From: Melioribacteraceae bacterium
GTDB lineage: Bacteria > Bacteroidota > Ignavibacteria > Ignavibacteriales > Melioribacteraceae
DNA: 34,877 nucleotides
Assembly: GCA_021739765.1 (NCBI GenBank)
Contig: JAIPBD010000032.1
Span: 1-34,877 of the forward strand
Reading direction: 5' to 3'
Part shown: positions 869-15,230 of the stretch, piece by piece
Numbering within the stretch: position 1 is the stretch's first letter
Layout of the letters: each line of letters begins with the position of its first letter
The notes under the pieces: model-generated
The model's database searches: none
Told to the model about the DNA's origin: nothing
The model's input: only the letters and a program-made list of their open reading frames with translations
Program-made: the position numbers and the translations under genes

Positions 869-2638
869 ATGCATCCTATAACTCAAAATCCATTTAGAAC
901 ATTAGGTCTTTGGGCTTCCGATACTAACCGAGAAATATCTAAACGACGATCACAAATCAAAGCCCTTTTAAAAGTTGGGAAACCAATTTCCTCAAAAAAA
1001 GATTTCGACTTACAATCAATACCAAAGCGTGATGAAAGTTCAATCGAGGAGGCTTTTAAAAAGATTGAGAATGAGAAAGATCGGATTATATATGGTTTAT
1101 TCTGGTTCGTTAAAGTAAACCATATCGACGAAATGGCTCTGGAAGGACTTCATAAAGAAAATCTAGATCGAGCTATTTCAATTTGGGAGAAAGTGGTTGA
1201 TGGTAAGCCGGTGAATTCTTCTAATTTTTCAGTTTATACAAACCTCGGAACGGCATATCTGCTCAAATCTAGCACCAATGGTGAATTGAATATCCAAGAA
1301 GGCATCATTGGTATAAAACATAAGCTCAATCTAATTAATTCATCAAATTTTGATAATTACTTATCTATATTCACTGATAATACTAAGTCAGTCAATAAAT
1401 CTGAATTAATCGAACACTTCTTAAACGAGCTAGTTTCCGCAAATGGTGAACTATTGGAGAATCTTCTTGAATATGAAAATAAGTTGGATTCAAATGTAAA
1501 GAGGTTGCTAATAGAGCGCTTATCGACTCAGCCACTTGATAGAATCCAGAAGAAAATAACTTTGACTAAAAATGCTCGGAAGAACAAACCTACAAACGGA
1601 TTAATGATTGCCGATAAATTATACGCCGATACCAAGAGTGATTGGGAAAAGTTAGATGAAATATTTACAGATGATGATATTCAATTTGTGAGTATCTCCG
1701 ACAATCTGGCAAAAGAATTACTTCAATGTGGTATAGATTTTTTTGGAGAATTTAGCGAAAATGAAAAAGTGTCAACTAATCATATTAGGGAAGTCGCCAT
1801 CGCTTCTTCAATAGGCATCAAGCTCAATGACAAACTTGGGGACGCCGTTCTTAAGGTATTCGAAGTTGCTGAGCGTTTTGCAATTGGAAATCTCGCCACT
1901 GATAGAGTTCAAGATAATATTGTTGGTGTTAAGGAATGGATTAAAAACGCCGATTTGAGGATGAATATAGAACCAGCTAAGCAATATTTGGAAGAACTGG
2001 ACAATCTGATTGAGGATTTTAACCGTACGCATCGAAACATAACTGAATCTTTGTTTCTATTGATAAATGCAGAGACTCCTCTTAAAAAAATTGGCAATGC
2101 AATTGGTGCGGAAAATCAAGTATATAAAATATATTCAAATAAAATTGCTGTATTGGCTCAAAATTCTACAGTTGCCTTTATGCGTTTCGCAGATAATCAA
2201 ATTGCTAATAACCAACTATCAATTTTCCGTTTTGAGGAGTATTTAAAAAAAGCTCTAAACGTTTTTAGAAAACTGAAATCTTTTTATAAAACACCGGAGA
2301 ATGTTGATATATTTAATTTAAATCACCAAGGTTATCTGAGAATGAGTCGTGAACTCACAAGAATACAAGCCAAGATTCCCTTAACCAATAACAACTCTCA
2401 GAGTTCCGGTTGCTACATCGCAACAATGGTTTATGGTGATTATAATCATTTCAAAGTCGTTCAACTAAGAGAGTTTCGGGATAACAACCTTTCCAATTAT
2501 AGAATAGGAAAAGCATTTATTCGGAATTACTACCGATACTCACCCAAATTAGTAGAAAATTTAAAAACTAAGCTATTTATAAATTCGATTATCAAAAAAG
2601 TACTGGATGGTTTCATATGGTTAATATCAAGAAAATAA
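869..2638 (+). CDS. Hsp70-operon protein with J-like N-terminus and CFI-box C-terminal domain
   Basis: A 589-residue protein if started at ATG 869; the frame can extend to TTG 833, but the ATG fits the promoter candidate and puts the conserved NPFRTLGL motif at residues 7-14. That motif, followed by a helix leading to KALLKVGK-like residues, recalls N-terminal segments in Bacteroidota proteins encoded beside Hsp70 genes, and resembles the first helix of a J-domain. No HPD tripeptide is visible, so a true J-protein is not shown. The middle (about 100-500) is helical, possibly with degenerate repeats. Residues 513-589 match the CFI-box type C-terminal domain: GCYIATMVYG, then LREFRDNNL, FIRNYYRYSP and a hydrophobic end. 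First gene of the operon; its end overlaps the next gene by 22 nt. Likely a co-chaperone or adaptor, by context. Confidence 0.7.
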   Translation: MHPITQNPFRTLGLWASDTNREISKRRSQIKALLKVGKPISSKKDFDLQSIPKRDESSIEEAFKKIENEKDRIIYGLFWFVKVNHIDEMALEGLHKENLDRAISIWEKVVDGKPVNSSNFSVYTNLGTAYLLKSSTNGELNIQEGIIGIKHKLNLINSSNFDNYLSIFTDNTKSVNKSELIEHFLNELVSANGELLENLLEYENKLDSNVKRLLIERLSTQPLDRIQKKITLTKNARKNKPTNGLMIADKLYADTKSDWEKLDEIFTDDDIQFVSISDNLAKELLQCGIDFFGEFSENEKVSTNHIREVAIASSIGIKLNDKLGDAVLKVFEVAERFAIGNLATDRVQDNIVGVKEWIKNADLRMNIEPAKQYLEELDNLIEDFNRTHRNITESLFLLINAETPLKKIGNAIGAENQVYKIYSNKIAVLAQNSTVAFMRFADNQIANNQLSIFRFEEYLKKALNVFRKLKSFYKTPENVDIFNLNHQGYLRMSRELTRIQAKIPLTNNNSQSSGCYIATMVYGDYNHFKVVQLREFRDNNLSNYRIGKAFIRNYYRYSPKLVENLKTKLFINSIIKKVLDGFIWLISRK

Positions 2639-3579
2639 TATTTCTCTTACTTCTTCTATTCGTATCGAGTTTAGAAGCCCAAAGTGACTCTACTGAAACG
2701 ATAGAAAAACTGATTCAGCTTCAGAGAGATTATGAAAATGTCACAAACAAACTGGATTCTCTTTCTGGAGAAATAACTGAACAAGGGAATTCGCTTTTTA
2801 AGTTAAAAAACTTACAAAAAACTAATTCTTCACATTTAAACCGATTAAATAATCTTTTGTCAGCACTCACTGATTCAACCAATCTAAATAAAAACCTCAT
2901 CCAATCTTTGGGAGATTCAGTTGAAAACAAGTCTCAGAATTTATCGAAAGAGATAATAAAAACTAAAGACGAATCCATTTCGAATTTCAACTCACTCGAA
3001 GAATCATTAAGCCGCAACACACTTTACTGGATAATCGGAATCTTGTTGGTTGCAGTTCTTTCACTAATTGGAATTTTGCTGCTTAGAAATAAAATGAATC
3101 AGAGTAATACTAGTATTGAGAAAAATTTGAGCAATACTAGGAAAGAGCTCGAGACAGAAGCAATCAAACTTGATCAGAAATTAATGCAAATTCTTGAAAC
3201 TCAACTTAAGGTTATGGATTCTGAGAGGAACGAGACTGCAAGTCCGGCAAAAGTAGATCACTCTCTTGCGCTCAAAGTTGCTGATGAAATTGTTAGAATG
3301 GAAAAGAATCTAAAACTGATGGATCCGGAAACCAGAGGGCTCAAACAACTTTCAAAAGCGGTTGAACGCATTAAGAATAATTTTGAGGCAAATGGTTATG
3401 AAATGGTTGAAATGTTAGGGAAAGAGTATAGTGACGGTATGAAAGCAACCGTAAACATAATTATTGATGAAACACTCAATGAGAGCAATAGAATTATTAC
3501 AAGAATTATAAAACCACAAGTGAATTTTCAAGGTGAGATGATCCAATCTGCACAAATAGAAGTTTCACAAGCAATCTAG
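2617..3579 (+). CDS. Membrane-anchored protein with GrpE-like C-terminal domain
   Basis: A 320-residue protein. It has an N-terminal signal-like hydrophobic stretch (residues 5-22, ending SSLEAQ), an extracytoplasmic coiled-coil region (about 27-133), one strong membrane segment (about 136-157), a second coiled coil (about 158-200) and a C-terminal domain. Residues about 214-318 read like GrpE: two helices, then F-x-x-NGYE-M-V-E-M-LGKEYSDGM, an I-I-I-DE strand and a closing IIKPQV-x-F-x-GEMIQSAQIEVS. These correspond to the G-E-x-I...G-x-x-(FD/YD)...LRPA-x-V-x-V features of the GrpE beta domain. The next gene, 8 nt downstream after an AGGAG ribosome binding site, is an Hsp70, which supports a nucleotide-exchange role at the membrane. 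The GrpE assignment is inference from pattern; the membrane topology is direct observation. Confidence 0.65.
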   Translation: MVNIKKIIFLLLLLFVSSLEAQSDSTETIEKLIQLQRDYENVTNKLDSLSGEITEQGNSLFKLKNLQKTNSSHLNRLNNLLSALTDSTNLNKNLIQSLGDSVENKSQNLSKEIIKTKDESISNFNSLEESLSRNTLYWIIGILLVAVLSLIGILLLRNKMNQSNTSIEKNLSNTRKELETEAIKLDQKLMQILETQLKVMDSERNETASPAKVDHSLALKVADEIVRMEKNLKLMDPETRGLKQLSKAVERIKNNFEANGYEMVEMLGKEYSDGMKATVNIIIDETLNESNRIITRIIKPQVNFQGEMIQSAQIEVSQAI

Positions 3580-3587
3580 GAGTAATT

Positions 3588-5873
3588 ATGTACAGAACTA
3601 AAATTGACTACGGTATTGATCTTGGCACTACAAATTCAGCGATCTGCCGCATGGAAAATGGCGAACCAGTAATAAGGAAGACTGACACATTGAAAGATAC
3701 TATGCCTTCATGCATCGGGTTTAATAAAAAGAGATCCTTGGTTTGTGGTGATAAAGCTCTAAACATGCTTAAATCTGATAAATTGCGTGCAAATATAAGT
3801 AGTAATAATTCAACATATAATATTTTTATCGAATTTAAGCGCTCAATGGGTAGTGATAAACAGTACTACAGCTCTTATATGGAAAGCTCTTATGATTCGG
3901 AATTTTTATCCGCCGAAGTATTAAAAAAATTAAAGTCATTTTTCACCGATGAAAATACAAGATCAGCTGTTGTGACTGTACCTGCGAATTTTGATATCAG
4001 ACAGAAGGATGCAACTCAAAGGGCGGCTAAGTTAGCCGGTTTATCTAATTGTGAATTACTCCAAGAACCTGTAGCAGCTTCAATAGCATATGGTCTAAAT
4101 ACTAAACAAAAAAGTGGATATTGGCTAGTTTTTGATTTTGGAGGAGGTACCTTTGATGCGGCGCTCGTTAAAATTGAGGAAGGAATTTTAAAAGTTGTTG
4201 ATACTGATGGCGATAATTACCTAGGAGGCAAAGATTTAGATTATGCTATTGTCGACAAGATAATCTTACCATACTTTGAAAATAATTATACAATGGATAG
4301 CATTTTGGGAGATGATGGAAAAAGACAAATTTTTAGAGATGCCATGAAGTATTATGCTGAAGAAGCTAAAATTCAATTGTCGTTTTCTGAAACACACAAC
4401 ATTCTCTCTGATCTGGGTGATATTCCCGGTGAAGATGATGATGGTAATGAGTTTGAGCTTGATATTTTGGTTACTCAAGAAGATTTAAAGAGAGCACTCT
4501 CACCTATCTTTCAAAAGGCAATTGATATCACTCTTGACTTAGTAAAAAGAAATAAAATCGAGCATGATTCACTTGATACAGTATTACTTGTTGGTGGGCC
4601 CACGTACTCGCCGATAGTAAGAAATATGATTGAGCAACAAATTAAAAAACCAGACTTTTCTGTAGATCCAATGACTGTTGTTGCTCAAGGAGCAGCCTTA
4701 TATGCTTCAACAGTAGACCTTTCTCAAGAAGTAATCGATCACAATTCAGATCCCACAAAAATTAGTTTAGACATTGGTTATGAGTCAACTACGGTAGAGA
4801 AAGAAGCTTGGGTTACTATTAAATGTAAAGACGAATCAAAATCATTATTAAAAGAAGGAAATATTTATGTAGAATTTCATCGCAATGATAAAGGATGGAG
4901 TTCTGCAAAATCACAAATAAGTGATCAAGGTGAGATTATCGAAGTGAATCTAGTTGAGAACAAACCCAATTCATTCGATATTCATGTTTTTTCTGAAGAA
5001 GGTAATAGACTTGAATGTCAGCCAAATAGCTTCACTATTATACAAGGTATTGGAGGAACGGATCAAACAGCAGTATTAGCGCATTTTATTGGATTAGAGA
5101 TCAAAGATTCTAAGAAAGAGAAGTTGGTCTATAGCACCATAAAAGGATTGGAGAAAGGAGCAACCACTCCTGCAAAAGGAGTTAGTAACGATCTTAAAAC
5201 CCAGCAGCAAGTTAGACCTGGAAATATTAATGATAGAATAAAAATTAATTTGTATCAAGGTTCACATGGTGCTGAGGGAACGAGAGCAATCAATAATGAA
5301 TTAATTTACAGTGTAATTGTGACGGGAGATGAATTGCCTTCACTTTTGCCTGAGAATTCCGATGTTGAGCTTACACTAACAACTGACAATTCTGGACGAC
5401 CTAAAATATTGGAGTTATACTTCCCCTATTTAGAATTCTCACTAGAAAAGAGTATTCCAGAAGTAAGAAATTCAGAAGTTCAATTAGACTATTTAAAGAA
5501 GGAGATAGAGAAAGGAGAAGGTGAATTAACCGAGTTAGAAAATAACGGATTAACAGAATCCGACAAAATTTATGAGATTCGGGAAAGTTTCACTCATCTA
5601 AAGGAAAAGTTAAAACAAAATGAGAATGATTTTGACATAAAAGCCGAAGTATTCAGCAAGCTCAAAAAGGCGATGAAAAAGATCGATACACAGATCAACG
5701 AAACAGAGTGGCCTAAAATTGAAGCTGAATTGAGAATTGAATTCTCTCGCTTGCAGAAAGCTAATAATGATCTCGGCAATGAGAAAACATCCTCGATAGT
5801 CGAAAGTTTCAGAAATCAAATTGACGATGTAGTAAGGAGAAAAGACCCCACGTTAGGCAAAGAGTTGTTATAG
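3588..5873 (+). CDS. Hsp70 (DnaK-like) chaperone with an extra domain between NBD and SBD
   Basis: A 761-residue protein; DnaK is about 640. The ATPase domain is complete by motif: GIDLGTTNS (9-17), the phosphate-binding lysine region EFKRSMGS (82-89), VTVPANFDIRQ (about 129-139), VFDFGGGTFD (181-190) and DTVLLVGGPTYSP (330-342). Residues about 385-490 are beta-rich and not a normal part of Hsp70. After them comes a substrate-binding-beta-like region (about 500-610) with INLYQGSHG, AINNELIYS and TTDNSGRPKI. A long charged coiled coil (about 625-750) takes the place of the lid. The start is ATG 3588 with AGGAG 5 nt upstream. It follows the GrpE-like gene and precedes a small protein and a kinase-AAA fusion. 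Housekeeping DnaK is unlikely given the length and context. Confidence 0.93.
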   Translation: MYRTKIDYGIDLGTTNSAICRMENGEPVIRKTDTLKDTMPSCIGFNKKRSLVCGDKALNMLKSDKLRANISSNNSTYNIFIEFKRSMGSDKQYYSSYMESSYDSEFLSAEVLKKLKSFFTDENTRSAVVTVPANFDIRQKDATQRAAKLAGLSNCELLQEPVAASIAYGLNTKQKSGYWLVFDFGGGTFDAALVKIEEGILKVVDTDGDNYLGGKDLDYAIVDKIILPYFENNYTMDSILGDDGKRQIFRDAMKYYAEEAKIQLSFSETHNILSDLGDIPGEDDDGNEFELDILVTQEDLKRALSPIFQKAIDITLDLVKRNKIEHDSLDTVLLVGGPTYSPIVRNMIEQQIKKPDFSVDPMTVVAQGAALYASTVDLSQEVIDHNSDPTKISLDIGYESTTVEKEAWVTIKCKDESKSLLKEGNIYVEFHRNDKGWSSAKSQISDQGEIIEVNLVENKPNSFDIHVFSEEGNRLECQPNSFTIIQGIGGTDQTAVLAHFIGLEIKDSKKEKLVYSTIKGLEKGATTPAKGVSNDLKTQQQVRPGNINDRIKINLYQGSHGAEGTRAINNELIYSVIVTGDELPSLLPENSDVELTLTTDNSGRPKILELYFPYLEFSLEKSIPEVRNSEVQLDYLKKEIEKGEGELTELENNGLTESDKIYEIRESFTHLKEKLKQNENDFDIKAEVFSKLKKAMKKIDTQINETEWPKIEAELRIEFSRLQKANNDLGNEKTSSIVESFRNQIDDVVRRKDPTLGKELL

Positions 5874-5891
5874 CAAATATTCGATGTATTT

Positions 5892-6125
5892 ATGCAACTA
5901 ACGTTTATTTATCAATTAATTGGTTTTCTTCAAGGAGTTGATAGAGACTTTAACTCAATTAATTGGAGGGATTCGAATAGAGCAAGACAATTATTGAATA
6001 ATGGGAAAAGAATAATTGCTGAAAACCCAACAAAAGATAATTTGTATCCAATCTTCAAAGAATTGTTCGATCTCATGCCACCAGAGCAAAGACCAACTGA
6101 CGATATGGAAGTACTTGAGAGATAA
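5892..6125 (+). CDS. Small Hsp70-operon protein, unrecognised
   Basis: A 77-residue, soluble-looking protein with no signal peptide or cysteine motif. It reads as two or three helices (QLIGFLQGVDRDF; RARQLLNNGKRIIAENP; LYPIFKELFDLMP). The gene starts 18 nt after the Hsp70 stop and ends 2 nt before the kinase-AAA start, so translational coupling with its neighbours is likely. I recall similar helical proteins of about this size in Hsp70-containing operons of Bacteroidota but cannot give a family. No strong ribosome binding site precedes the ATG. Its position between Hsp70 and the ATPase suggests an adaptor, which is inference only. Confidence 0.7.
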   Translation: MQLTFIYQLIGFLQGVDRDFNSINWRDSNRARQLLNNGKRIIAENPTKDNLYPIFKELFDLMPPEQRPTDDMEVLER

Positions 6126-6127
6126 AA

Positions 6128-7921
6128 ATGAAAAGTGAACTTCCAAAAAAGACGTTTATTGATAGTAAATATTACATCCAATTTTTCATCAGTAAAGGTA
6201 AAAATTCAGATTCTTATAGAGTTAAAGACAAAGACGGTCATCCATATTTCCTAAAGTTATTTGATTTATCAAAATTGCACCGTACCCAATTTGATAGTGA
6301 GGGCAATGTTAAAGAGATTGAATTCTTAAAGAAAATCGCCCACGAAAATATAGTATCATTCATTGATTCTGGAGAGTGGTTTTACCAAAATGAAAGATTT
6401 TCCTACTTAGTCTTGGAATATATTAGTGGTGAGAATTTAACTCAGATCAGCAGAAGAAATCGGCTATTTTCGGCATACGAGGTAAAGATAATTTTGAAAG
6501 CCCTGCTTTCTGGCCTACACCACCTTCATACTCAAGAAATGGCAATCTTACACAACAATGTTAGACCCGAAAATATAATCATCGACTACTCAAATGAAAA
6601 AAAGATAACCAAACTTGTGGATTTCGGTTATGCCCGATTATTTCGCAATTCTACTAAGGTGTTTTACAGAGAAGGGCTAAATCCCTTCTATCTGGCACCT
6701 GAATGTTTTAATAATATTTTTTCAATAAAGAGTGATATATTCTCAGTCGGAGCAACAGCATACTATCTAATGTTTGGTTTACCACCTTGGTATCTAGATT
6801 TGAGTGATTACCAATTACAAAATGAAAATGTTGAAGACTTAATAGAGGAAAGACGTAAACGGCCGATTGAATATTTAGAATTCGAGGGTGTCCATTTTGA
6901 TGATGAAGAGGAACATTCTCAGATGTTAGGAATTGTGAAAAAAGCACTCAACACTGATCCCGACGAAAGATTTACTGATTGTCTTGAAATGATTTTAGCA
7001 CTTGACGGAAAAATCAAACTTTCAGTCAGTTCCATAATTAAAGCTAAATCTACAAAGCAAGAAGAAATTGCCATAAAGAAATTGGGTGGAGGCTTTAAAG
7101 ACATCGCGGGTATGCAAGCTTTAAAAGAAACTCTATACAACGATGTTATAAGGGCAATTAATGAAAAAGAATTGTATCAAAAATATGGTTTAACCATTCC
7201 TAATGGAATTCTGCTTTACGGACCGCCTGGATGTGGAAAATCTTTTTTCGCACAGAAATTGGCTGAAGAAATAGGCTGCAATTTTAAGATTATCAAACCA
7301 TCAGATTTAGCAAGCATCTATGTTCATGGATCACAAGAAAAAATAGGGAAACTCTTTGATGAGGCTATGGCTAATGCTCCATTCTTTTTGAATTTTGAAG
7401 AATTTGATGCCTTTGTCCCCAAAAGGGATGGTGCTCAGAGCTCACATTATTCCGCTGAAGTAAATGAATTTTTAACTCAACTTAACAATTGCGGTGAAAG
7501 AGGGGTATTTGTAATTGCCACGACCAATCAACCCTTATTGATTGATACTGCGGTGTTACGTTCTGGAAGAATTGACAAGAGCTTTTATATACCGCCACCT
7601 GACCTGATTGCAAGACAAGAATTATTTAAAATTCATCTAAAAAACAGACCAATAGACTTTGGAATTGACTACGAGAAACTTTCAAAAATGACCGAAAATT
7701 ACGTATCGAGCGATATCAATCTGATAGTAAATGAGGCAGCGAGGCAAGCATTAATGTCAAACGAAATAATAACACAAAAAATACTGGATAATACATTAGA
7801 AAACAGCAAACCATCAATAGGGTTAGAGGATTTATCTAAATACAACGACGTGAGAAATCTTTTTGAAGGTAATAGAAATCAAAAAAACAAGCGTTTTGAG
7901 TTTGGATTCACTAGCGAATAG
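6128..7921 (+). CDS. Protein-kinase-like domain fused to an AAA+ ATPase
   Basis: A 597-residue, two-domain protein. Residues about 12-290 have a Ser/Thr kinase fold by motif: a lysine in FLKLFD (K43), a catalytic loop region LHNNVRPEN (141-149), DFG (165-167), APE (190-192) and SDIFSVGATAYYLMFG (202-217). The glycine-rich loop is poor (SKGKNSDSY), and the position of the catalytic Asp in HRD is Asn144, so it may be a pseudokinase. Residues about 320-560 are a classic AAA domain of the proteasomal-ATPase/FtsH/Cdc48 type: Walker A GPPGCGKS (365-372), a Walker B variant NFEEFD with Glu424 in place of the usual Asp, sensor-1 ATTN (464-467), and the second region RSGRID with candidate arginine fingers R478/R481. 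The AAA half looks catalytically competent. It probably remodels clients of the adjacent Hsp70; that is inferred from context. Confidence 0.9.
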   Translation: MKSELPKKTFIDSKYYIQFFISKGKNSDSYRVKDKDGHPYFLKLFDLSKLHRTQFDSEGNVKEIEFLKKIAHENIVSFIDSGEWFYQNERFSYLVLEYISGENLTQISRRNRLFSAYEVKIILKALLSGLHHLHTQEMAILHNNVRPENIIIDYSNEKKITKLVDFGYARLFRNSTKVFYREGLNPFYLAPECFNNIFSIKSDIFSVGATAYYLMFGLPPWYLDLSDYQLQNENVEDLIEERRKRPIEYLEFEGVHFDDEEEHSQMLGIVKKALNTDPDERFTDCLEMILALDGKIKLSVSSIIKAKSTKQEEIAIKKLGGGFKDIAGMQALKETLYNDVIRAINEKELYQKYGLTIPNGILLYGPPGCGKSFFAQKLAEEIGCNFKIIKPSDLASIYVHGSQEKIGKLFDEAMANAPFFLNFEEFDAFVPKRDGAQSSHYSAEVNEFLTQLNNCGERGVFVIATTNQPLLIDTAVLRSGRIDKSFYIPPPDLIARQELFKIHLKNRPIDFGIDYEKLSKMTENYVSSDINLIVNEAARQALMSNEIITQKILDNTLENSKPSIGLEDLSKYNDVRNLFEGNRNQKNKRFEFGFTSE

Positions 7922-7929
7922 GAGAAGAA

Positions 7930-8439
7930 ATGGAAAAAATAGCATTTAATGAATTACTGCTTAACACCGCATTTGCATGCATGTCGTGTGATGGTGATAT
8001 TGATGAACGTGAGGTTAAATTATTAATTAAACTTGAGAGTGATGAGCACATTTTTGGAGTGAGTAATATTGAAGGAAAACTGAACGAACTAATCAAATCG
8101 ATTAATGAGAAAGGTGATAAATTTTTCAAACATTACTTTCGGAATCTGTCAAATTCTAATCTAAGTAAAGAACAAGAATTGTTGCTAATCGACACGGCAA
8201 TAAGGACTATTGAAGCAGATGAAGTTGTTGAGTACAGTGAAATGAAATTCTTTAAAATCATTCGCTCAAAGTTAAAATCTACAAACAAAGAAATTTTGGA
8301 TAAAATCCCAGAAATTGAGGAGTATCTGGAACGTGATATCATATCCCAAAGTTATATTGAAAAGTTAACAAGCGATTATTTCGAGAGTTGCACTTTACCA
8401 AAATTTAATTCTATCGAGTCCATAAAAACGGGAGTGTAA
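7930..8439 (+). CDS. TerB-like protein, last gene of the Hsp70 operon
   Basis: A 169-residue helical protein. It carries the paired acidic signature of TerB-like (TerB/DjlA N-terminal type) domains: ACMSCDGDIDEREV near residue 16-29 and IEADEVVEYSEMKFF near 94-108. These acidic helices bind metal or act as interaction modules in the tellurite/stress-response families. The start ATG has AGGAG about 7 nt upstream and lies 8 nt after the kinase-AAA stop. TerB-like domains are known to occur in predicted membrane-associated stress complexes, matching this operon. The stop is 3 nt before a possible IS end (8443), so the last few residues may have been altered by an insertion. Confidence 0.8.
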   Translation: MEKIAFNELLLNTAFACMSCDGDIDEREVKLLIKLESDEHIFGVSNIEGKLNELIKSINEKGDKFFKHYFRNLSNSNLSKEQELLLIDTAIRTIEADEVVEYSEMKFFKIIRSKLKSTNKEILDKIPEIEEYLERDIISQSYIEKLTSDYFESCTLPKFNSIESIKTGV

Positions 8440-8442
8440 AAT

Positions 8443-8455
8443 AGACTGTGTAAAT
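8443..8455 (-). mobile_element. Possible end of an IS256-type element
   Basis: AGACTGTGTAAAT (minus-strand reading ATTTACACAGTCT) looks like the terminal inverted repeat ends of IS256-family elements. It starts 3 nt after the TerB-like stop codon. Only one end is seen and no transposase is left, so this is a hint only. Confidence 0.2.
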
Positions 8456-8636
8456 GGTTTCATCCCTATCATGGTAGTGAAGCGCTCAAGGACAAAACGC
8501 TTTTGTAGATCGAACTTTTTCTTTGTTATGTAAAACCAGGCGGGAATGGATATCCTTCGTTGAGCCGAAATAATATCTGTTGTGGGAAACACTATGAAGT
8601 ATATATGTATAAAACATTTCAAATTCTTTAAAACTA

Positions 8637-8660
8637 AAAACCCGACAATTGCCGGGTTTT
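8637..8660 (+). terminator. Bidirectional-looking intrinsic terminator
   Basis: AAAACCCG (8637-8644) pairs perfectly with CGGGTTTT (8653-8660). The T-run and ATTT follow on the plus strand, and a T-run follows the stem on the minus strand too. It lies about 200 nt after the TerB-like stop and could end the Hsp70 operon transcript. Confidence 0.55.
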
Positions 8661-8772
8661 ATTTCTGCGGAGAGTCAGGGATTCCGCACAGCGTCCTTTG
8701 GAGAACCACGGGATAGCTCACACCATCAACGGTTTTCTAAATGGAATTGATTGTTAATACGGCTTCGTGAAA

Positions 8773-8880
8773 TTATATAATTCCTTGTTGCTTTAGCCAA
8801 TTCCTTCCTTCAAGTGATTTGAAAAACATCGCTCTTCGATAGGCTTCACTATCATGACGGCTGAGAAAATTGACGAATTG
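8773..8880 (-). pseudogene. 3' remnant of an unidentified gene
   Basis: Read on the minus strand, the segment gives 35 protein-like residues ending in a stop: it contains FLSRHDSEAYRRAMFF and EGRNWLKQQGII. The composition looks like real coding sequence, but the frame has no start and runs directly into repeat copy 2 at about 8883, as if the rest had been replaced or deleted. The family is not recognised. Confidence 0.3.
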
Positions 8881-8882
8881 AC

Positions 8883-8955
8883 GGACAACCGAGGATATTG
8901 CAAAACCTTCGAGGTCTGAGTATTAACATTATCACCAAGACCTCGAAGGTTTATC
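8883..8955 (+). repeat. Structured intergenic repeat, copy 2 (hairpin III only)
   Basis: Contains GACAACCGAGGATATTG followed by a 15-bp perfect stem AAACCTTCGAGGTCT (8903-8917) with 8938-8952 and a 20-nt loop. It is the right-hand end of copies 1 and 3 without hairpins I and II. Confidence 0.75.
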
Positions 8956-8980
8956 ATTCGAATTTATAAGGAATTTACTC

Positions 8981-9223
8981 GGCGGGCAAAGACCATTCTT
9001 TGCCCTTGGAATAGTTGGAGTGGTATAGATACTGTGGGAGATTCAGAAAAAGATAGCCCCCTACTGCGGGGCATCGAGTTTAAATATTATTTGTAAGGTC
9101 GTGACACCCGGGGCAGGTGTGCCGAATTTATGTTGTCAAAGCATGGGCATTGACAACCGAGGATATTGCAAAACCTTCGAGGTCTGAGTATTAACATTAA
9201 CACCAAGACCTCGAAGGTTTATC
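8981..9223 (+). repeat. Structured intergenic repeat, copy 3 (hairpins I, II and III)
   Basis: Hairpin I is GGGCAAAGA (8984-8992) with 8997-9005. Hairpin II is a mismatched version at about 9132-9157. Hairpin III has a 15-bp stem (9171-9185 with 9206-9220). The middle carries a different segment of roughly 35 nt (about 9078-9115, containing GTGACACCCGGGGCAGG) than copies 4 and 5. It has the same orientation as copy 1. Confidence 0.8.
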
Positions 9224-9290
9224 ATTACTTTGTTGTCAAGGCATCAAGTTCAAATTTTATTTTTAAGACCGTGTCAGCCGAGGATAAGAA

Positions 9291-9458
9291 CTTTTTCTCG
9301 GAGGGCAAAGACCATTCTTTGCCCTTGGAATAGTTGGGGTGGAATAGATACTGTGGGAGATTCAGAAAAAGATAGTTCCGTACGGCGGGAGCATTGAGTT
9401 CTAAACATAGAAGTGTGCCGAGTTTATGTTGTCAAAGCATGGGCTTTGACAACCGAGG
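9291..9458 (+). repeat. Structured intergenic repeat, copy 4; left bracket of the toxin-antitoxin pair
   Basis: A 168-nt unit beginning CTTTTTCT and ending ACAACCGAGG, with perfect hairpin I and perfect hairpin II (GTTGTCAAAGC, loop ATGG, GCTTTGACAAC). It differs from copy 5 (10232-10399) at three positions that I can find. Hairpin III is absent. Confidence 0.85.
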
Positions 9459-9562
9459 AAAAGAGATGCGGGACAGGTTGGGGCGCCGCTTTTCGGCAAC
9501 GCCTACTTGCTACAAGTCAAGTTATTGAATTTTATTGTATATCTTCATAATATACGGTTGCT

Positions 9563-9880
9563 ATGGAAAAAATAATTGATAAATGTGTAGGTTTTCAGTG
9601 GGATAAAGGAAATTCAGAGAAAAACTGGGAAGCACATAAAGTATTAAAATCCGAATGTGAACAAACATTTTTTAATAAACCATTATTAATAATAGACTCA
9701 AAAAAGCAGACAGTCAAAGAGAAAAGATGGTATTTACTTGGCAGATCGGATTTAGATAGAAAACTATTCATCGTCTTTACAATAAGAAAAAATTTAATCA
9801 GAATTATATCGGCAAGAGATATGAGCAAAAAAGAAAGAGGAAAATATAATGAAGAAATTGAAAAAGATACCGAAATTTAA
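9563..9880 (+). CDS. brnT: BrnT-family (DUF497) toxin of a type II toxin-antitoxin pair
   Basis: A 105-residue protein with BrnT family features in order: FQWDKGNSEKNWEAHKV (F-x-WD...N...H), an acidic/aromatic middle, EKRWYLLGRSD, a beta strand KLFIVFTIR, and the family's closing RIISARDMSKKERGKY. BrnT proteins are RelE-fold ribonucleases that inhibit translation until bound by their antitoxin. The usual KH of the family's N-terminal motif is AH here. The antitoxin gene starts 32 nt before this one's stop, the normal toxin-first order. The module stands between two nearly identical 168-nt repeats. The start is ATG 9563; I see no TAnnTTTG promoter in front. Confidence 0.88.
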   Translation: MEKIIDKCVGFQWDKGNSEKNWEAHKVLKSECEQTFFNKPLLIIDSKKQTVKEKRWYLLGRSDLDRKLFIVFTIRKNLIRIISARDMSKKERGKYNEEIEKDTEI

Positions 9881-10127
9881 GACAGAAGATGAAGAAAGAA
9901 ACTTTTGGTCCAAGTCTGATTCAACTGACTATTTAGATTGGGAGAATTCAAAAAAAGAAACTTTCCCAAAATTAAAGCCATCAACAAAAACTATTTCACT
10001 CCGTCTCCCAGAATCAATGTTAGATGAGTTGAAATCCTTAGCAAATAAACGAGATGTCCCATATCAGTCGTTGATAAAAATAATGTTGAAAGAGAGAATT
10101 GATCGAGAATTTAGGATTACTCAATAA
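9849..10127 (+). CDS. brnA: BrnA/CopG-type antitoxin
   Basis: A 92-residue protein. The N-terminal half, with IPKFKTEDEERNFWSKSD-type residues, is the toxin-binding segment common in antitoxins paired with DUF497 toxins. The C-terminal half is a ribbon-helix-helix DNA-binding domain (TISLRLPESMLDELKSLA, then KRDVPYQSLIKIMLKE). Such antitoxins bind the toxin and repress their own promoter. It overlaps the toxin gene by 32 nt. It is placed in the CopG/BrnA group by motif; the exact subfamily is not certain. Confidence 0.87.
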   Translation: MKKLKKIPKFKTEDEERNFWSKSDSTDYLDWENSKKETFPKLKPSTKTISLRLPESMLDELKSLANKRDVPYQSLIKIMLKERIDREFRITQ

Positions 10128-10409
10128 TAAAGGTCGCATATAACCTCTATTAAAGGTAGACTGTCAAGCAAAAAATAGATATCCCCGCCGATTTTTTTGT
10201 AAAAAATCAGAAAAATATTATTTTATCTGGTCTTTTTCTTGGAGGGCAAAGACCATTCTTTGCCCTTGGAATAGTTGGGGTGGAATAGATACTGTGGGAG
10301 ATTCAGAAAAAGATAGTTCCGCACGGCGGGAGCATTGAGTTCTAAACATAGAAGTGTGCCGAGTTTATGTTGTCAAAGCGTGGGCTTTGACAACCGAGGC
10401 CGTATAATC
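10128..10409. other. Interval between antitoxin and mazG
   Basis: It holds an AT-only 8-bp hairpin GATTTTTT/AAAAAATC (10190-10197, 10201-10208) that could weakly end the toxin-antitoxin transcript, and repeat copy 5. No gene is visible. mazG arrives from the other strand with its stop at 10410, only 10 nt from the repeat. Confidence 0.6.
10232..10399 (+). repeat. Structured intergenic repeat, copy 5; right bracket of the toxin-antitoxin pair
   Basis: The same 168-nt unit as copy 4 in direct orientation with three visible differences (C/T at about the tenth base, T/C in the middle, A/G in the loop of hairpin II). Hairpins I and II are both perfect. It may also act as a terminator between the converging antitoxin and mazG genes. 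Confidence 0.85.
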
Positions 10410-11171
10410 TCACACTTTGGATTTACTTTCTTCCCAATATTTATCCATTTCTTCAAGGTTCGAATCAGTAATAGCTTTTCCTTTTTCTCTTAATCTATCT
10501 TCGATATATGTGAACCGTTTAATAAATTTTTCATTTGTTAATCGCAGAGCGGATTCGGGAGAGACTTTTACAAAACGGCAATAATTAGCGATCGAAAAAA
10601 GCAAATCACCAATTTCGGCTTCAAGATTTGGATTATTTTCGTCATGAGATAATTCTTCAATTTCGTCAAGTTCTTCTTTTACTTTTTTCCAAACATCTTC
10701 CTTATTTTCCCAGTCAAAACCAACCTTCGCGGCTTTTTGCTGCAGCCGGAACGCTCTATTTAATCCCGGCAAGTTTTTAGGTACACCTTCAACAACCGAT
10801 GTTCTTCCTTCCTGGAGTTTTATTTTTTCCCAATTCATTTCGATATCTTTATTTCCATTTACGACAGTATCACCGAAAACATGGGGATGCCGACGAATCA
10901 ATTTTTCGGTAATACCGCTTATTACATCCTCAATGGAAAAATGTCCTTCATCCTCGGCAATTTTAGAATGAAAAACTACATGGAGCAGCAGATCGCCTAA
11001 TTCCTTTTTTAATTCATCAAAATCTTTATCATCAATTGCTTCGATTACTTCATAAGCTTCCTCTAATGTAGCGTCTTTAATGGAATCGTTAGTTTGTTCG
11101 CGGTCCCAAGGACATTCGACCCGCAGTCTATTCATTATTTCAATAAGTTCTGCAAATTTTTCTTTCGGCAT
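10410..11171 (-). CDS. mazG: Nucleoside triphosphate pyrophosphohydrolase MazG
   Basis: A 253-residue protein with two MazG domains, close to the E. coli length (263). The first has ECPWDREQT, EEAYEVIEAID and ELGDLLLHVVFHSKI; the second has VGFDWEN, KEELDEIEEL and EIGDLLFSIANYCRF. The E-x-x-E and E-x-x-D helices bind Mg2+. The enzyme hydrolyses non-canonical and regular NTPs to NMP and pyrophosphate, clearing damaged nucleotides, and in E. coli lowers ppGpp. The ATG at 11171 has AGGGAAATT in front. It stands alone, divergent from the ridA-like gene. Confidence 0.96.
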   Translation of the reverse strand: MPKEKFAELIEIMNRLRVECPWDREQTNDSIKDATLEEAYEVIEAIDDKDFDELKKELGDLLLHVVFHSKIAEDEGHFSIEDVISGITEKLIRRHPHVFGDTVVNGNKDIEMNWEKIKLQEGRTSVVEGVPKNLPGLNRAFRLQQKAAKVGFDWENKEDVWKKVKEELDEIEELSHDENNPNLEAEIGDLLFSIANYCRFVKVSPESALRLTNEKFIKRFTYIEDRLREKGKAITDSNLEEMDKYWEESKSKV

Positions 11172-11184
11172 AATTTCCCTAATT

Positions 11185-11192
11185 CAAAAGTA
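11185..11192 (-). promoter_or_regulatory. TAnnTTTG box upstream of mazG
   Basis: TACTTTTG on the minus strand lies 13 nt before the mazG ATG. No TTTG is seen at the expected upstream distance and the leader would be very short, so this is a weak candidate. Confidence 0.25.
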
Positions 11193-11319
11193 AAGTCGAA
11201 ACATAATATTTAATGAATTGTAATACCATAACGGGGAAAATGAAGTCAGAACTAAACTGAACCATCTTGAATCGAGGATGAGCAAAGGATATGTTATTTT
11301 ATTATTCTCATTAAACAAG

Positions 11320-11327
11320 TATATTTG
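11320..11327 (+). promoter_or_regulatory. TAnnTTTG box upstream of the ridA-like gene
   Basis: TATATTTG lies 22 nt before the ATG at 11350 in the divergent mazG/ridA interval (11172-11349). No clear -33 TTTG is visible. Confidence 0.4.
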
Positions 11328-11349
11328 TGCTTAATTAAAGAAGATAGCT

Positions 11350-11811
11350 ATGCAAATTGAAGAAAAATTAAAAGAATTGGGACATCAATTACCGGAAATT
11401 GCCAAACCGCTGGCATCCTACATACCCGCAACGGTGGTTGATGGATTTGTGTATACCTCGGGGCAAGTTCCTATTTTGAAGGGAGAGTTAATATACAAAG
11501 GTAAAGTTGGTTCGGATTTAACTCTGAACGAGGGTCAGATGGCCGCGCAAATGTGTATATTAAATTGTTTGGCCGCGATTAAGGGTGAAATCGGTGATCT
11601 TGATAAAATCGAACGAATCGTGAAACTTACCGTTTTTGTACAAAGCGCCGAAGGATTTACTGATCAACCAAAAGTTGCCAACGGAGCTTCGGATTTACTA
11701 CAGCAAGTTTTTGGCGACGCGGGTAAACATGCCAGAAGCGCGGTTGGTGTAATTCATTTACCGATTGGTTCTGCTGTTGAAATTGAAATGATTGCAAAAA
11801 TTAGGGCTTAG
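11350..11811 (+). CDS. RidA (YjgF/YER057c/UK114) family protein
   Basis: A 153-residue protein of the long RidA subgroup (about 150 residues against about 128 for canonical RidA). It shows GFVYTSGQVPI near residue 31-41, the central NCLAAIKGEIGDLDKIERIVKLTVFV, and the C-terminal ARSAVGVIHLPIGSAVEIEMIAKI. Canonical RidA deaminates reactive enamine/imine intermediates using an arginine in the R-S-A-V-G segment, which is present (HARSAVGV). The subgroup's substrate is unsettled, so no symbol is given. It is followed 8 nt later by panD and probably co-transcribed with it. Confidence 0.92.
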   Translation: MQIEEKLKELGHQLPEIAKPLASYIPATVVDGFVYTSGQVPILKGELIYKGKVGSDLTLNEGQMAAQMCILNCLAAIKGEIGDLDKIERIVKLTVFVQSAEGFTDQPKVANGASDLLQQVFGDAGKHARSAVGVIHLPIGSAVEIEMIAKIRA

Positions 11812-11819
11812 ATTGAAAT

Positions 11820-12176
11820 ATGATACGCGAGATGTTTAAATCAAAAATTCACAGAGCGAAAATTACCGAAGCAAACCTGTTTTATGAGGGTAGTTTGACT
11901 GTTGATGAAGAATTATTGGAAAAATCCAATATTTTGGTTCATGAGAAGGTTCAAGTAGTAAATATTAATAACGGTGCACGTTTCGAAACTTATACTATAT
12001 TGGGAGAACGTGGGAGTGGGGTTATCGGATTAAACGGAGCCGCCGCAAGATTAGGTGCCGTGGGCGATGAAGTAATTATTATCACTTATACACAATTGAA
12101 TGAAGATGAAGCGAAACTCCACAAACCAATTGTTGTGCATGTCGATGATAAAAACAAGATTAAAAATATTACTTAA
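11820..12176 (+). CDS. panD: Aspartate 1-decarboxylase
   Basis: A 118-residue protein matching PanD over its full length. It makes beta-alanine from L-aspartate for pantothenate and coenzyme A. The proenzyme self-cleaves between Gly24 and Ser25, turning the serine into the pyruvoyl cofactor; YEGSLTVD here places S25 exactly. Also seen are [12 protein letters not shown] at the start, [16 protein letters not shown] (about 62-77, holding the catalytic pocket), and GDEVIIITY. The start ATG 11820 gives the canonical N-terminus. The other pantothenate genes are not in the window. Confidence 0.97.
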
Positions 12177-12218
12177 AATTAACCAAGTCATAATCAAATT
12201 CACGAAAGGTGGATTAGA

Positions 12219-12713
12219 ATGAAAAAGATATTTGTGATTCTATTACTTTCAACTGTAACCGTTTTGGGTCAGTTTAAAGACAGTAAAGATAATGAGTTAG
12301 ATATCGCCGGCAGTATTTTGCGTCCAGCATCACCTTCATTTTTGTTCGGATTAATCGATCCGGGTAAATTAAGCGTGAATCATTCCGTTTCACTTTCTTA
12401 TGGCGCATCAGGAAATAACGGAATGGCATTGAGTGTCTATACCAACACAATCAACTATGATTTTTCAAATAAATTGAATTTAGAAGTTGAAACCAGTATG
12501 GTTAATAGCCCGTATAATTCTTTCGGAGATGATTTTACAAGCCAGATTAACGGGATATATTTATCGAAGGCGCGTTTAAATTATAGTCCGAGTGAGAATA
12601 CCAGAATCACAATTCAATATAATAATAGTCCTTTTGGATACGGCAGATATGGTTATAACGGATATCGTGGATACAACCGGGGATACAGAAATGGATTTTT
12701 CGATTGGGATTGA
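12219..12713 (+). CDS. Small secreted, outer-membrane-like protein with Tyr/Gly/Arg-rich tail
   Basis: A 164-residue protein. It has a signal peptide (residues 1-17, ending VLG before QFKD), then alternating hydrophobic/polar strands typical of outer-membrane or periplasmic beta proteins (VSLSYGAS, MALSVYTNTINYDF, LNLEVETSMV). The last about 28 residues are a low-complexity GYGRYGYNGYRGYNRGYRN tail. It has a good ribosome binding site (AAAGGTGG) 6 nt before the ATG. The family is not recognised. It precedes the LytR_C protein with a 28-nt gap and may share a transcript with panD upstream. Confidence 0.8.
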   Translation: MKKIFVILLLSTVTVLGQFKDSKDNELDIAGSILRPASPSFLFGLIDPGKLSVNHSVSLSYGASGNNGMALSVYTNTINYDFSNKLNLEVETSMVNSPYNSFGDDFTSQINGIYLSKARLNYSPSENTRITIQYNNSPFGYGRYGYNGYRGYNRGYRNGFFDWD

Positions 12714-12741
12714 TTTAATTAAAGTGATAATAAAAGACTGA

Positions 12742-13212
12742 TTGGCTTCTAAAACTACAAATACTTCGAAGAATAGCACGATTCGTAACCTTTTTCTGAA
12801 TGTTATTATTTTCTTGCTTGCCTCTTTAATAATTTATTTATCTTTCTCAATTTATATCAAATTAAGCGGTAAGGAATCGGTAAATCTTCCTCCGAAAGAA
12901 TATAAAACTCCATCCGAAATTATCCAGGCAGAAGTGTTAAACGGTTGTGGAGTTACCGGAATTGCGGATCGTTTTACCGATTATCTTAGAAACAAAGGCG
13001 TTGATATTGTAAATACCGATAATTATTACAGGTTCGATATTTCAAAATCGATGGTGATTGATCGAACCGGCAGAATGGCAAATGCTTATGAAGTCGCGAA
13101 AGTATTAGGCATAAGCGAAAAAAATGTAGTTCAACTTATAAATGAAGATTATTTTCTGGATGTTTCTGTTGTTATCGGAAAAGATTATCATAACTTAAAA
13201 CCAATAAAATAG
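12742..13212 (+). CDS. LytR C-terminal domain protein with one membrane anchor
   Basis: A 156-residue protein. It has a cytoplasmic N-terminus rich in Thr/Ser/Asn, one membrane segment (about 19-42, LFLNVIIFLLASLIIYLSFSI-type residues), then a periplasmic LytR_C-like domain with the diagnostic AEVLNGCGVTGIADRFTDYL and the closing DVSVVIGKDY. The function of stand-alone LytR_C proteins is not settled; the domain is associated with the cell envelope. The TTG start at 12742 directly follows an in-frame stop (12739-12741), so no longer form is possible. It is followed 8 nt later by rsfS; this linkage (LytR_C domain gene next to rsfS) also occurs elsewhere in bacteria. Confidence 0.82.
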   Translation: MASKTTNTSKNSTIRNLFLNVIIFLLASLIIYLSFSIYIKLSGKESVNLPPKEYKTPSEIIQAEVLNGCGVTGIADRFTDYLRNKGVDIVNTDNYYRFDISKSMVIDRTGRMANAYEVAKVLGISEKNVVQLINEDYFLDVSVVIGKDYHNLKPIK

Positions 13213-13220
13213 AGGTCGAT

Positions 13221-13601
13221 TTGGATTCAAAGGAATTCGTAGATATGATCACTGAGATCATACTTAGCAAAAAAGGTTCTGATATTAAAATTTTGGATAT
13301 GAAGGATGTATCGAGTATTGCTGATTATTTTATTATCTGTTCAGCGGATTCAGATACGCAGGTAAAAGCTATCGCCGATGAAGTTGATAGAAAACTTGCG
13401 AAACAAGGTATTAAATGTTATCACAAAGAAGGCCTTGTCGGTTTAAATTGGGCGCTGCTCGATTATGTGGATGTGGTGGTTCATATTTTTAGAACACCTT
13501 CGCGAGCTTATTACAATTTGGAAAAATTGTGGGGAGACGCGCCTGTAATTGAGGTTATCGATCAACTGGAACAAAAAAGTTTAGACGGAGAAAATGATTA
13601 A
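13221..13601 (+). CDS. rsfS: Ribosomal silencing factor RsfS
   Basis: A 126-residue protein matching the RsfS/Iojap/DUF143 family. Motifs are DIKILDMKDVSSIADYFIICSADSD, GLNWALLDYVDVVVHIF and RAYYNLEKLWGDAP (given here as separate short blocks of the family). RsfS binds uL14 on the large subunit and prevents subunit joining in starvation. The start is TTG 13221 with GAGG 5 nt upstream; it begins the protein at the normal family position. The stop TAA is immediately followed, in the same frame, by the GTG start of argS. Confidence 0.95.
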   Translation: MDSKEFVDMITEIILSKKGSDIKILDMKDVSSIADYFIICSADSDTQVKAIADEVDRKLAKQGIKCYHKEGLVGLNWALLDYVDVVVHIFRTPSRAYYNLEKLWGDAPVIEVIDQLEQKSLDGEND

Positions 13602-15230
13602 GTGAAAGATTACCTTCAAGAAAAGTTCGAAGAAGCCGCAGCCAAGTTAGATTATTTGGATTATTCCAGAGTGGTTTTTAATATCCCGGCAAATCCCGAG
13701 CATGGAGATTATTCTACCAATATTGCTATGATCTCCGCGAAATCGGCAAAGAAAAACCCGAGGCAAATTGCGCAAGAAATAATCGATTCTCTTCAGCTCG
13801 ACGAAAAAATAATTACGAAGGTTGAAATTGCGGGACCCGGATTTATCAACTTCTATTTTAATCCGGCATCTATTACATCGGTTATCGAAAGAGTTTTTGA
13901 ACAAAAAGAGAGTTTCGGAAAGAGTAAAAAGTATTCCGGAAAAAAAGCGATTCTCGAATTTGTATCCGCTAATCCAACCGGTCCTTTAACAGTTGGGCAT
14001 GGGAGAAACGCTGTTATTGGCGACACTCTATCAAACATGTTGGAGTGGAGCGGTTATGAAGTTGACAGGGAGTATTACTTTAACAATGCCGGCAGACAGA
14101 TGCGTGTATTGGGCGATTCCTTACGACTTAGGTATTTACAACTTTTTGATGAAAATATTGTTTTTCCGGAGGATTATTATCAAGGCGAATATTTAATCGA
14201 TATCGCAAAGTCTGTTCAAAAAAAATATGGTGACGGCTTAAAAGCAGAAAGCGCTGAAGGGAAATTTAAGGAGATTGCTGAAAAAGAGATATTTAGCGAC
14301 ATTGAACGCACCCTTGATCGAATCCAAATAAAATTTAAAAATTTCTATAATGAACAAACACTTTACGAAGATGGAAAAATCCAGGCCGTTTTAGATGAAT
14401 TTAAATCACGAAATTTATCTTACCAACAGGATAATGCAACGTGGTTGAAACTTACGGAAATGGGGCAAGAAGTCGATAAAGTGATTATTAAATCAACGGG
14501 TGAACCAACCTATAGATTACCGGATATCGCTTACCATAGAACAAAATTTGATCGGGGTTATGATTTAATTATTGATTTATTCGGTTCAGATCACGCGGCG
14601 ACTTACCCTGATGTTTTGGCTTCGATAAAAGCTTTGGGATACGATTTAGATAAGATAAAAGTATTAATTCACCAGTTTGTTACAATACTTGAGAAAGGTG
14701 AAGTTGTAAAAATGTCGACGAGGAAAGCTAACTTTATCACGCTCGATGAATTAATTGATGAAGTTGGGGCAGATGTTGTTCGCTATTTTTTCATTATGCG
14801 AAATATTTCGAGTCATTTGAATTTTGACATCGATATAGCAAAAAAACAGTCTGATGAAAATCCGGTTTTTTATTTACAATATGCACACGCGAGAATTTGT
14901 TCAATTTTAAGAATGGTTGTTGAGCAGGATTTGAAAATATCAACGGAAAATTTGGAGTTACTCGTTCATCCGGCTGAACAGAACCTACTAAAAATGTTAC
15001 ACCAATTCGAAGAAGAGGTATTATCAAGCGCGGAAAGTTTTGAACCACAGCGGATATCAAATTATCTGGAAGAATTGGCGGCAAAATTTCACAAATTTTA
15101 CACAGATTGCAGAATAATGGGGACGGAAAAACTATTGGCCGAAGCCCGAATCGCGTTAGCTGAAGCGACAAAAATTGTATTAAAGAACGGACTTACTATT
15201 TTAGGGCTTTCCGCGCCTGAAAAAATGTAG
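13602..15230 (+). CDS. argS: Arginyl-tRNA synthetase
   Basis: A 542-residue class I aminoacyl-tRNA synthetase, normal length for ArgS. The N-terminal additional domain (about 1-90) carries NPEHGDYSTNIAM. The HIGH signature is ANPTGPLTVGHGRNAVIGD (about 123-141), the KMSKS equivalent is VVKMSTRKAN (near 371), and the C-terminal DALR-type anticodon-binding domain begins near FYLQYAHARICSI and ends at GLTILGLSAPEKM. It charges tRNA-Arg with arginine. The GTG start directly abuts the rsfS stop; no ATG exists before the conserved N-terminal domain, so this start is needed. Confidence 0.97.
   Translation: MKDYLQEKFEEAAAKLDYLDYSRVVFNIPANPEHGDYSTNIAMISAKSAKKNPRQIAQEIIDSLQLDEKIITKVEIAGPGFINFYFNPASITSVIERVFEQKESFGKSKKYSGKKAILEFVSANPTGPLTVGHGRNAVIGDTLSNMLEWSGYEVDREYYFNNAGRQMRVLGDSLRLRYLQLFDENIVFPEDYYQGEYLIDIAKSVQKKYGDGLKAESAEGKFKEIAEKEIFSDIERTLDRIQIKFKNFYNEQTLYEDGKIQAVLDEFKSRNLSYQQDNATWLKLTEMGQEVDKVIIKSTGEPTYRLPDIAYHRTKFDRGYDLIIDLFGSDHAATYPDVLASIKALGYDLDKIKVLIHQFVTILEKGEVVKMSTRKANFITLDELIDEVGADVVRYFFIMRNISSHLNFDIDIAKKQSDENPVFYLQYAHARICSILRMVVEQDLKISTENLELLVHPAEQNLLKMLHQFEEEVLSSAESFEPQRISNYLEELAAKFHKFYTDCRIMGTEKLLAEARIALAEATKIVLKNGLTILGLSAPEKM

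Follow-up and report, generated by a model that had tools for sequence, protein, structure and literature searches.

Hsp70 systems are usually regarded as soluble housekeeping machinery, and a locus in the genome of a Melioribacteraceae bacterium raises the question of whether such a system can also exist as a dedicated accessory set with ties to the membrane. The locus occupies positions 869–8439 of the window, by which we mean the whole stretch of DNA analysed, 34,877 bases that make up the entire contig C8 of genome G000 (4.54 Mb in 37 contigs; the view upstream ends at base 1). An earlier note, made from the letters of the window alone, saw there an operon providing its own complete chaperone set. 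Sequence comparison across other genomes makes it moderately probable that the operon encodes a mobile accessory Hsp70-AAA remodelling machine coupled to the inner membrane.

A conserved gene set beside the housekeeping chaperones

Six open reading frames (ORFs), all on the + strand, lie at 869–2638 (g1), 2617–3579 (g2), 3588–5873 (g3), 5892–6125 (g4), 6128–7921 (g5) and 7930–8439 (g6), with successive junctions of −22, +8, +18, +2 and +8 nt; the tight co-directional run described in the earlier note is thus confirmed in its coordinates, strand and gaps. The same genome has a DnaK on contig C29 and adjoining GrpE and DnaJ genes on C6, and a DnaK was found besides the system Hsp70 in all seven system-bearing genomes searched. 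The Hsp70 of the operon is therefore separate from the housekeeping DnaK, a point for which the check had been named beforehand.

Not every ORF is a gene. The 77-aa product of g4 is encoded in the frame of g3, from which it is separated by a single TAG (5871–5873) and 18 nt. A phmmer search with g4 retrieved the Hsp70s of loci L018, L019, L020 and L021, an alignment in which g3 and g4 were entered as separate rows placed g4 at the C-termini of the Hsp70s of four relatives, and a profile of the tail also matches the Hsp70s of L026, L027, L028, L029 and L040. Since g4 is homologous to the C-terminal tail of these Hsp70s, it is, by homology, not an independent gene and not the small adaptor once proposed; it is an Hsp70 tail that is fused in relatives, and the six ORFs of the earlier note stand as five genes. 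TAG serves as a normal stop codon elsewhere in the contig, where it ends 6 of 21 other ORFs checked, and a split gene, a recent lesion and an assembly error are all equally compatible with the interrupted local Hsp70.

The gene set is found again in other genomes, mostly with its order kept, which is more than chance would give; the operon is a real, conserved unit. All five genes are present in the window and at L018, L019, L026, L027, L028, L029, L040, L106 and L159, and four of them at L020 and L021, both of which lie at contig limits; the annotation of the Haliscomenobacter hydrossis plasmid pHALHY02 reads CFI-box, septum formation initiator, Hsp70, AAA and TerB. The core genes are separated by −22 to +24 nt in the seven loci measured, except for a single gap of 972 nt at L026, which has extra genes between Hsp70 and g5, as do L027 and L028. 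At L027 a second, shorter Hsp70 (506 aa, 7466–8986) also lies inside the operon, between the Hsp70 and the kinase-AAA gene, and at L021 the order differs (Hsp70, AAA, TerB, g1). The prediction that the genes should co-occur elsewhere is thus upheld by a conserved set in Bacteroidota genomes and on a plasmid, with variants on IMG/VR contigs. Given the genome's own DnaK, GrpE and DnaJ and this conservation, the operon can be regarded as a dedicated accessory set, and the earlier account of its members is borne out in part: it stands for the Hsp70, the GrpE-like, the pseudokinase-AAA and the TerB-like proteins, with the adaptor removed and the J-like member refined as described below.

The distribution of the set is patchy. 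Among 21 genomes (the bacterium's own and 20 of the same family or order) the accessory Hsp70 occurs in the bacterium's own alone, and a wider draw added one more genome of the family, G356, whose locus (L159) is intact. Matches to g1 were found in 14 of 296 genomes of the phylum; five of them, its own included, extend over at least 300 residues, and Hsp70 and AAA genes adjoin in all five, while the remainder comprise six matches to the CFI box only and three weak ones, one of which (G177, L022) has an Hsp70 alongside. In genome contigs scanned with g5, 80 loci of 487 relatives were kept, of which the first 22 (L026–L047) were profiled and L048–L105 left out; all five genes were present in five of the 22, from Empedobacter, a Bacteroidia metagenome-assembled genome, Salinivirgaceae, Daejeonella and Paludibacteraceae.

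The model of the GrpE-like protein (A12) reaches further, with matches in 34 of 395 phylum genomes. In 12 genomes the match lies directly beside a system-type Hsp70, and in G215 it is cut by the contig end; canonical grpE genes account for the matches in G188, G304 and G047 and for the second match in the bacterium's genome, G123 has its match next to a dnaJ-like gene, and the matches of the other 17 genomes fell outside the neighbourhood look. There appears a wider family in which a short GrpE-like protein (95–130 aa) is followed by Hsp70, alone or with AAA and J-like genes, carried by L160–L166, by plasmids of Pseudomonas, Aminobacter and Vibrio, and by three IMG/VR contigs. In two genomes (L165, 4697–7487; L166, 5090–7884) the short pair lies directly downstream of gldK, gldL, gldM and gldN-like genes, names assigned from a look at the sequence, which we take to denote a type IX secretion and gliding motor cluster. 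DUF6804, a small protein with multiple transmembrane segments, stands alongside the operon at L018 (4979–5281) and L019 (14226–14525) by Pfam, and at L026 (8705–8992) and L161 (5305–5655) by inspection of the sequence.

The Hsp70 and its partners

The Hsp70 encoded by g3 (3588–5873; 761 aa up to the in-frame TAG) matches PF00012 at 2.2e-61 over residues 9–384, and its domains can be laid out as a nucleotide-binding domain (NBD, 1–384), an extra domain (about 385–494), a β-type substrate-binding domain (SBD-β, about 495–615) and a helical lid. The phosphate, Lys, Glu and adenosine motifs of the Hsp70 ATPase are intact in 11 of 11 system members, and homology of the SBD-β is well supported by profile comparison (hhalign 95.6%; score 63.5 against a maximum of 24.9 in 50 shuffles, none as good). 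The insert of about 105 aa between NBD and SBD-β is unlike DnaK, and it stands in the place of the VLLLDV-type interdomain linker, a motif that we take to be a DnaK feature, that the genome's own DnaK shows, and that was not seen by eye in the alignments of system Hsp70s. With the DnaK equivalog TIGR02350, g3 scores 213.4 bits, below the curated cut-off of 822.55 bits. A tree separates 22 system Hsp70s from seven DnaKs, all from one order, by a branch with 100/100 support; within the system three well-supported subgroups roughly track operon type, and the Hsp70 of L022 and the second of L027 fall outside every group.

The 320-aa product of g2 (2617–3579) is a predicted single-pass membrane protein whose layout, from hydropathy and AlphaFold2 (AF2), comprises a hydrophobic N-terminus, a long coiled coil, a transmembrane segment at about 138–156 and a GrpE-like domain at about 205–320. 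The internal hydrophobic segment occurs in 10 of 10 g2 proteins and the N-terminal one exceeds the threshold in 7 of 10. The AF2 model has a long helix at 25–131, a helix at 136–206 and further helices at 216–234 and 242–258, with a mean predicted local distance difference test score (pLDDT) of 67 and a predicted template modelling score (pTM) of 0.35. Neither g2 nor three short relatives match PF01025 at its gathering score. The assignment of the C-terminal domain as a GrpE homologue is nonetheless well supported: a hidden Markov model (HMM) of the g2 C-terminus and short relatives matches the canonical grpE of the same genome (E = 1.3e-6), and hhalign against GrpE, over both the helical bundle and the β-wing, gives 95.7% and a score of 57.9, the best of 60 shuffles reaching 18.9. 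The membrane GrpE-like protein of the earlier note thus holds in both of its parts, the GrpE homology and the predicted membrane segment.

The first protein, g1 (869–2638; 589 aa, helical), had been called a J-like/CFI-box protein. The CFI box is sound, with a match to CFI_box_CTERM (NF041770) at 8.3e-20 over C-terminal residues 515–581. The J-like part is confined to about 80 N-terminal residues that lack the HPD motif, and it is likely, though not proved, that these form a degenerate J-like domain. Moderate support comes from several comparisons. Against J-domains of the same order, none of 60 column shuffles scored as well in hhalign, and the N-terminal stretch NPFRxLGL aligns with J-domain helices I–II in two separately aligned sets, of 14 rows (27.3 against a shuffle maximum of 17.7) and of three rows (21.8 against 13.5), with none of 40 shuffles as good in either; the control profiles, GrpE and SBD, were equalled by 3, 10, 23 and 5 of 40 shuffles. 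The AF2 model (mean pLDDT 77.7, pTM 0.53) places helices at 8–11, 20–35, 56–67 and 69–76, which is J-domain order with an enlarged loop at 36–55. The other end of the protein varies: a CFI box is found in the window (profile), L018 (alignment) and L106 (annotation), a C-terminal hydrophobic segment takes its place in 7 of 11 proteins (7 of 10 relatives), and L029 has neither. The CFI box is thus an optional part of the family as far as its sequences go, and it may share a tethering job with the hydrophobic segment.

In g5 (6128–7921) a kinase-like region (about 1–300; Pkinase 2.3e-38) is fused to an AAA ATPase of CDC48/FtsH type (about 313–560; AAA 1.1e-27); the CDC48 and FtsH models also match, the latter over the AAA part only. 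The catalytic Asp of the kinase is kept in 2 of 11 members, the Lys in 10 of 11 and the DFG motif in 9 of 11; the window copy has HNN where the Asp of HRD is expected, and does not qualify as an active Ser/Thr kinase. The AAA part shows the features of the classic clade (Walker A and B, sensor 1, Arg-finger region), with Walker A in 11 of 11 and the DE of Walker B in 10 of 11, the window alone having EE. The description as a pseudokinase-AAA protein is therefore apt. Kinase-AAA relatives whose fetched stretch lacks the Hsp70 set were seen in Bacteroidales at L030–L035, L037–L039, L041, L043 and L047, and by their gene content these are a separate use of the same fusion; L036, matched in the earlier g5 scan, gave no profile match in its fetched stretch, probably through ORF thinning. 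The last gene, g6 (7930–8439), encodes a 169-aa protein that is TerB-like, as first suggested, at the level of the family: PF05099 matches 9 of 10 members at E ≤ 0.5 (best 1.1e-6), with no match to the window copy itself. For Ter systems, TerB has been put forward as a sensor of ligands (PMC7824862).

Mobility, neighbours and known systems

The repeats that the earlier note saw on both sides of the operon are copies of an interspersed repeat of about 165 bp, recognised by sequence matches within the genome, at 428–592 upstream and at 8974–9162, 9291–9458 and 10230–10400 downstream (+ strand given for 428–592 and 8974–9458). It has 19 matches in the genome at E ≤ 0.001, four of them within the window, with near-full copies on contigs C8, C30 and C4, and no Rfam family was found in the window, repeat included, at gathering thresholds. 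The neighbouring toxin-antitoxin pair is also real, a BrnT/CopG pair at 9563–10127 downstream of the operon. The GC content of the operon is 34.2%, compared with 36.9% for 10410–34877.

Horizontal transfer is supported by comparison of the system Hsp70s with the DnaKs of their hosts, because system identity exceeds DnaK identity in 2 of 21 genome pairs (Empedobacter and G011, 75% versus 67%; G142 and G011, 75% versus 66%), and because the genes occur on plasmids and viral contigs. G142 and Empedobacter are level (73% versus 73%), and the other 18 pairs show 26–61% for the system Hsp70 and 63–80% for DnaK. An integrase or relaxase gene adjoins the operon at L018, L026 and L029, and the Pseudomonas plasmid is typed as conjugative. 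Three IMG/VR contigs (L213, L214 and L215), examined of 80 kept, hold variants of the operon; TerB was not found in these three, and L214 and L215 match g5 in its AAA half only. L215 seems, from a look at the sequence, to continue into phage baseplate-like genes.

Some loci keep company with defence genes. At L160 a run on one strand (6766–14058) places a ThsB-type TIR protein and a PDC-M50A protein, which we take to be SLATT-like, directly 5′ of the GrpE-like, Hsp70, AAA and J-like genes, and may be considered a candidate composite defence operon. The Haliscomenobacter plasmid has SIR2, nSTAND1, WD40 and BREX pglZ/brxL genes as neighbours, L020 a NACHT-FGE protein 5′ of the operon (PDC-S60 model, 1.5e-30), L019 HsdM and a TIR protein, L029 Gabija and L127 a Gabija-like system; in all, a flank protein matched by PADLOC occurs in at least 5 of 11 system loci. 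Control flanks also hold defence matches (CRISPR III-A, PDC-S01, GajB-like and others), so this comparison does not show enrichment, and the link of the operon flanks with defence is suggestive. Envelope-related neighbours occur as well: L127 and L128 have peptidoglycan-binding domains, L022 has an OmpA domain, and L018 shows an SH3 match below threshold.

Compared with the DnaK-DnaJ-GrpE cycle and its partner ClpB, the operon shares an Hsp70 with intact ATPase motifs and SBD-β, a GrpE homologue, a J-like protein and an AAA partner. It differs in the extra domain and C-terminal tail of the Hsp70, in a GrpE domain fused to a receptor-like transmembrane protein, in a J-like part without HPD, and in an AAA protein that is of CDC48/FtsH type with a pseudokinase rather than a ClpB. 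PADLOC 2.0.0 gave no match for g1, g4 and g6 and weak ones for g2 and g3 (best E 0.047 and 0.021); the AAA part of g5 matches IetA models (4.3e-29) and its kinase part mad6 (2.4e-44), but the likeness to IetA, MAD6 and PD-T4-6 is at domain level, and no partner of those systems is among the operon genes. Accessory Hsp70 and GrpE, sometimes as DnaJ fusions, also occur in the proposed GAP1-N2 GTPase conflict operons (Kaur et al. 2020, PMC7159879), which differ in that the present operon has no GTPase match, no FNIII gene found, a membrane-bound GrpE-like protein, and a pseudokinase-AAA and TerB instead. In CoCoNuT type III systems an Hsp70-like NBD/SBD occurs in defence-associated operons (PMC11090510); that Hsp70 is described as having degenerate Walker A-like motifs and a tie to McrB GTPase and McrC, neither of which is matched among the operon proteins. 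Membership in either system was rejected, the defining genes (the GAP1-N2 GTPase; McrB/McrC) being unmatched among the operon proteins. A literature search yielded no paper that we recognised as describing the present operon.

What the machine may be for

A plausible sequence of events can be envisioned for a membrane-coupled Hsp70-AAA machine. The J-like protein, tethered by its C-terminus through a transmembrane segment or the CFI box, would deliver a client to the Hsp70. Nucleotide exchange would be driven by the GrpE-like tail of g2, whose periplasmic coiled coil could in this way gate the cycle of the Hsp70 or fix its location. Unfolding or extraction of the client would fall to the AAA ring, and the pseudokinase and TerB parts may serve as recruiting or ligand-sensing modules. 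The purpose is the least certain element: it may be the rescue or dismantling of membrane protein assemblies under mobile-element attack or stress, and possibly also the chaperoning of neighbouring TIR/STAND immune proteins. Several observations weigh against this picture. The window copy has a TAG inside its Hsp70 and an Asp-to-Glu change in the Walker B of g5; no HPD was seen by eye in the g1 family rows inspected (sets of 11 and 16 rows), L160 having DPD near that position, and whole-model fold comparison scarcely covered g1 residues 1–82; the AF2 model of g2 is poor in the β part of GrpE (pLDDT 40–52); the Haliscomenobacter plasmid is typed as non-mobilizable; of nine phage records matched by the Hsp70, none had a match that covered 80% of the query; and the control flanks count here too.

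An anti-phage role of the operon is plausible, suggested by some of its neighbours and its mobility, although we rate somewhat below an even chance the idea that it is a defence system proper, in which the machine would sense infection through the periplasmic coiled coil or a TerB ligand and would act on phage or host assemblies or activate a linked effector. The TIR and PDC-M50A genes of L160, the immune genes of the plasmid, the neighbours of L019, L020, L029 and L127, and the integrase and relaxase genes speak for such a system. PADLOC, by contrast, gives no match at the level of a system, and none of its models reaches 1e-5 with the SIR2 and nSTAND1 proteins of L106; the flank control is not clean, the toxin-antitoxin pair is the only defence-type gene content recognised in the window, and the operon is without a constant killing effector. 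A bolder version, which we hold only tentatively and think rather unlikely as it stands, would make g2 a transmembrane nucleotide-exchange receptor whose periplasmic coiled coil would respond to events at the envelope, for example the entry of a phage, and whose cytosolic GrpE would gate the Hsp70-AAA machine; the whole would be an immune module that plasmids and prophage-like elements carry from one bacterium to another.

The operon might instead be a mobile island for protein quality control or envelope stress (heat, aggregation or envelope damage), with a purpose like that of transferable stress-tolerance loci, which also carry mobile chaperone cargo but have a different gene content. Every part is of proteostasis type, the set is mobile, and the envelope-related and gld-like neighbours would suit such an island; its patchiness and the TIR, STAND and restriction-modification neighbours of some loci better fit conflict, and the operon genes include no recognised member of the small heat-shock protein, ClpB/ClpG or protease families. 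We find this reading unlikely. Equally doubtful is the suggestion that the operon of the window genome is a decaying remnant, to which the in-frame TAG, the Walker B change and the presence of the operon in 1 of 21 sampled genomes might point: set beside those of relatives, the remaining ORFs show no shortening, the tail ORF still has an ATG of its own, the gene may be split and yet work, and G356, of the same family, has an intact operon. Least probable, and in our view improbable, is a role as a chaperone dedicated to the immune NTPases encoded nearby rather than as an effector. STAND or TIR genes lie within about 5 kb at L019, L020, L106 and L160, and the phage sensing of bNACHT25, a bacterial NLR-like protein, is reported to require E. 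coli DnaJ (PMC12169576), but neither the window nor the remaining five-gene loci that were inspected showed a recognisable STAND/TIR neighbour.

If the favoured reading of a membrane-coupled accessory machine is right, a mobile Hsp70 family with its own J-like and AAA partners and a membrane-spanning GrpE-like one would mean that the whole chaperone cycle has been rebuilt for a special task. The family adds an Hsp70 with a domain set in its allosteric linker, and it hints that CFI-box and DUF6804 proteins, whose function is unknown, belong in a setting of Hsp70 and its cochaperones. Were the receptor version of g2 true, it would represent a form of signalling whose transmitted signal is nucleotide exchange on a chaperone. 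Overall, the operon offers a testable link from proteostasis to bacterial immunity.

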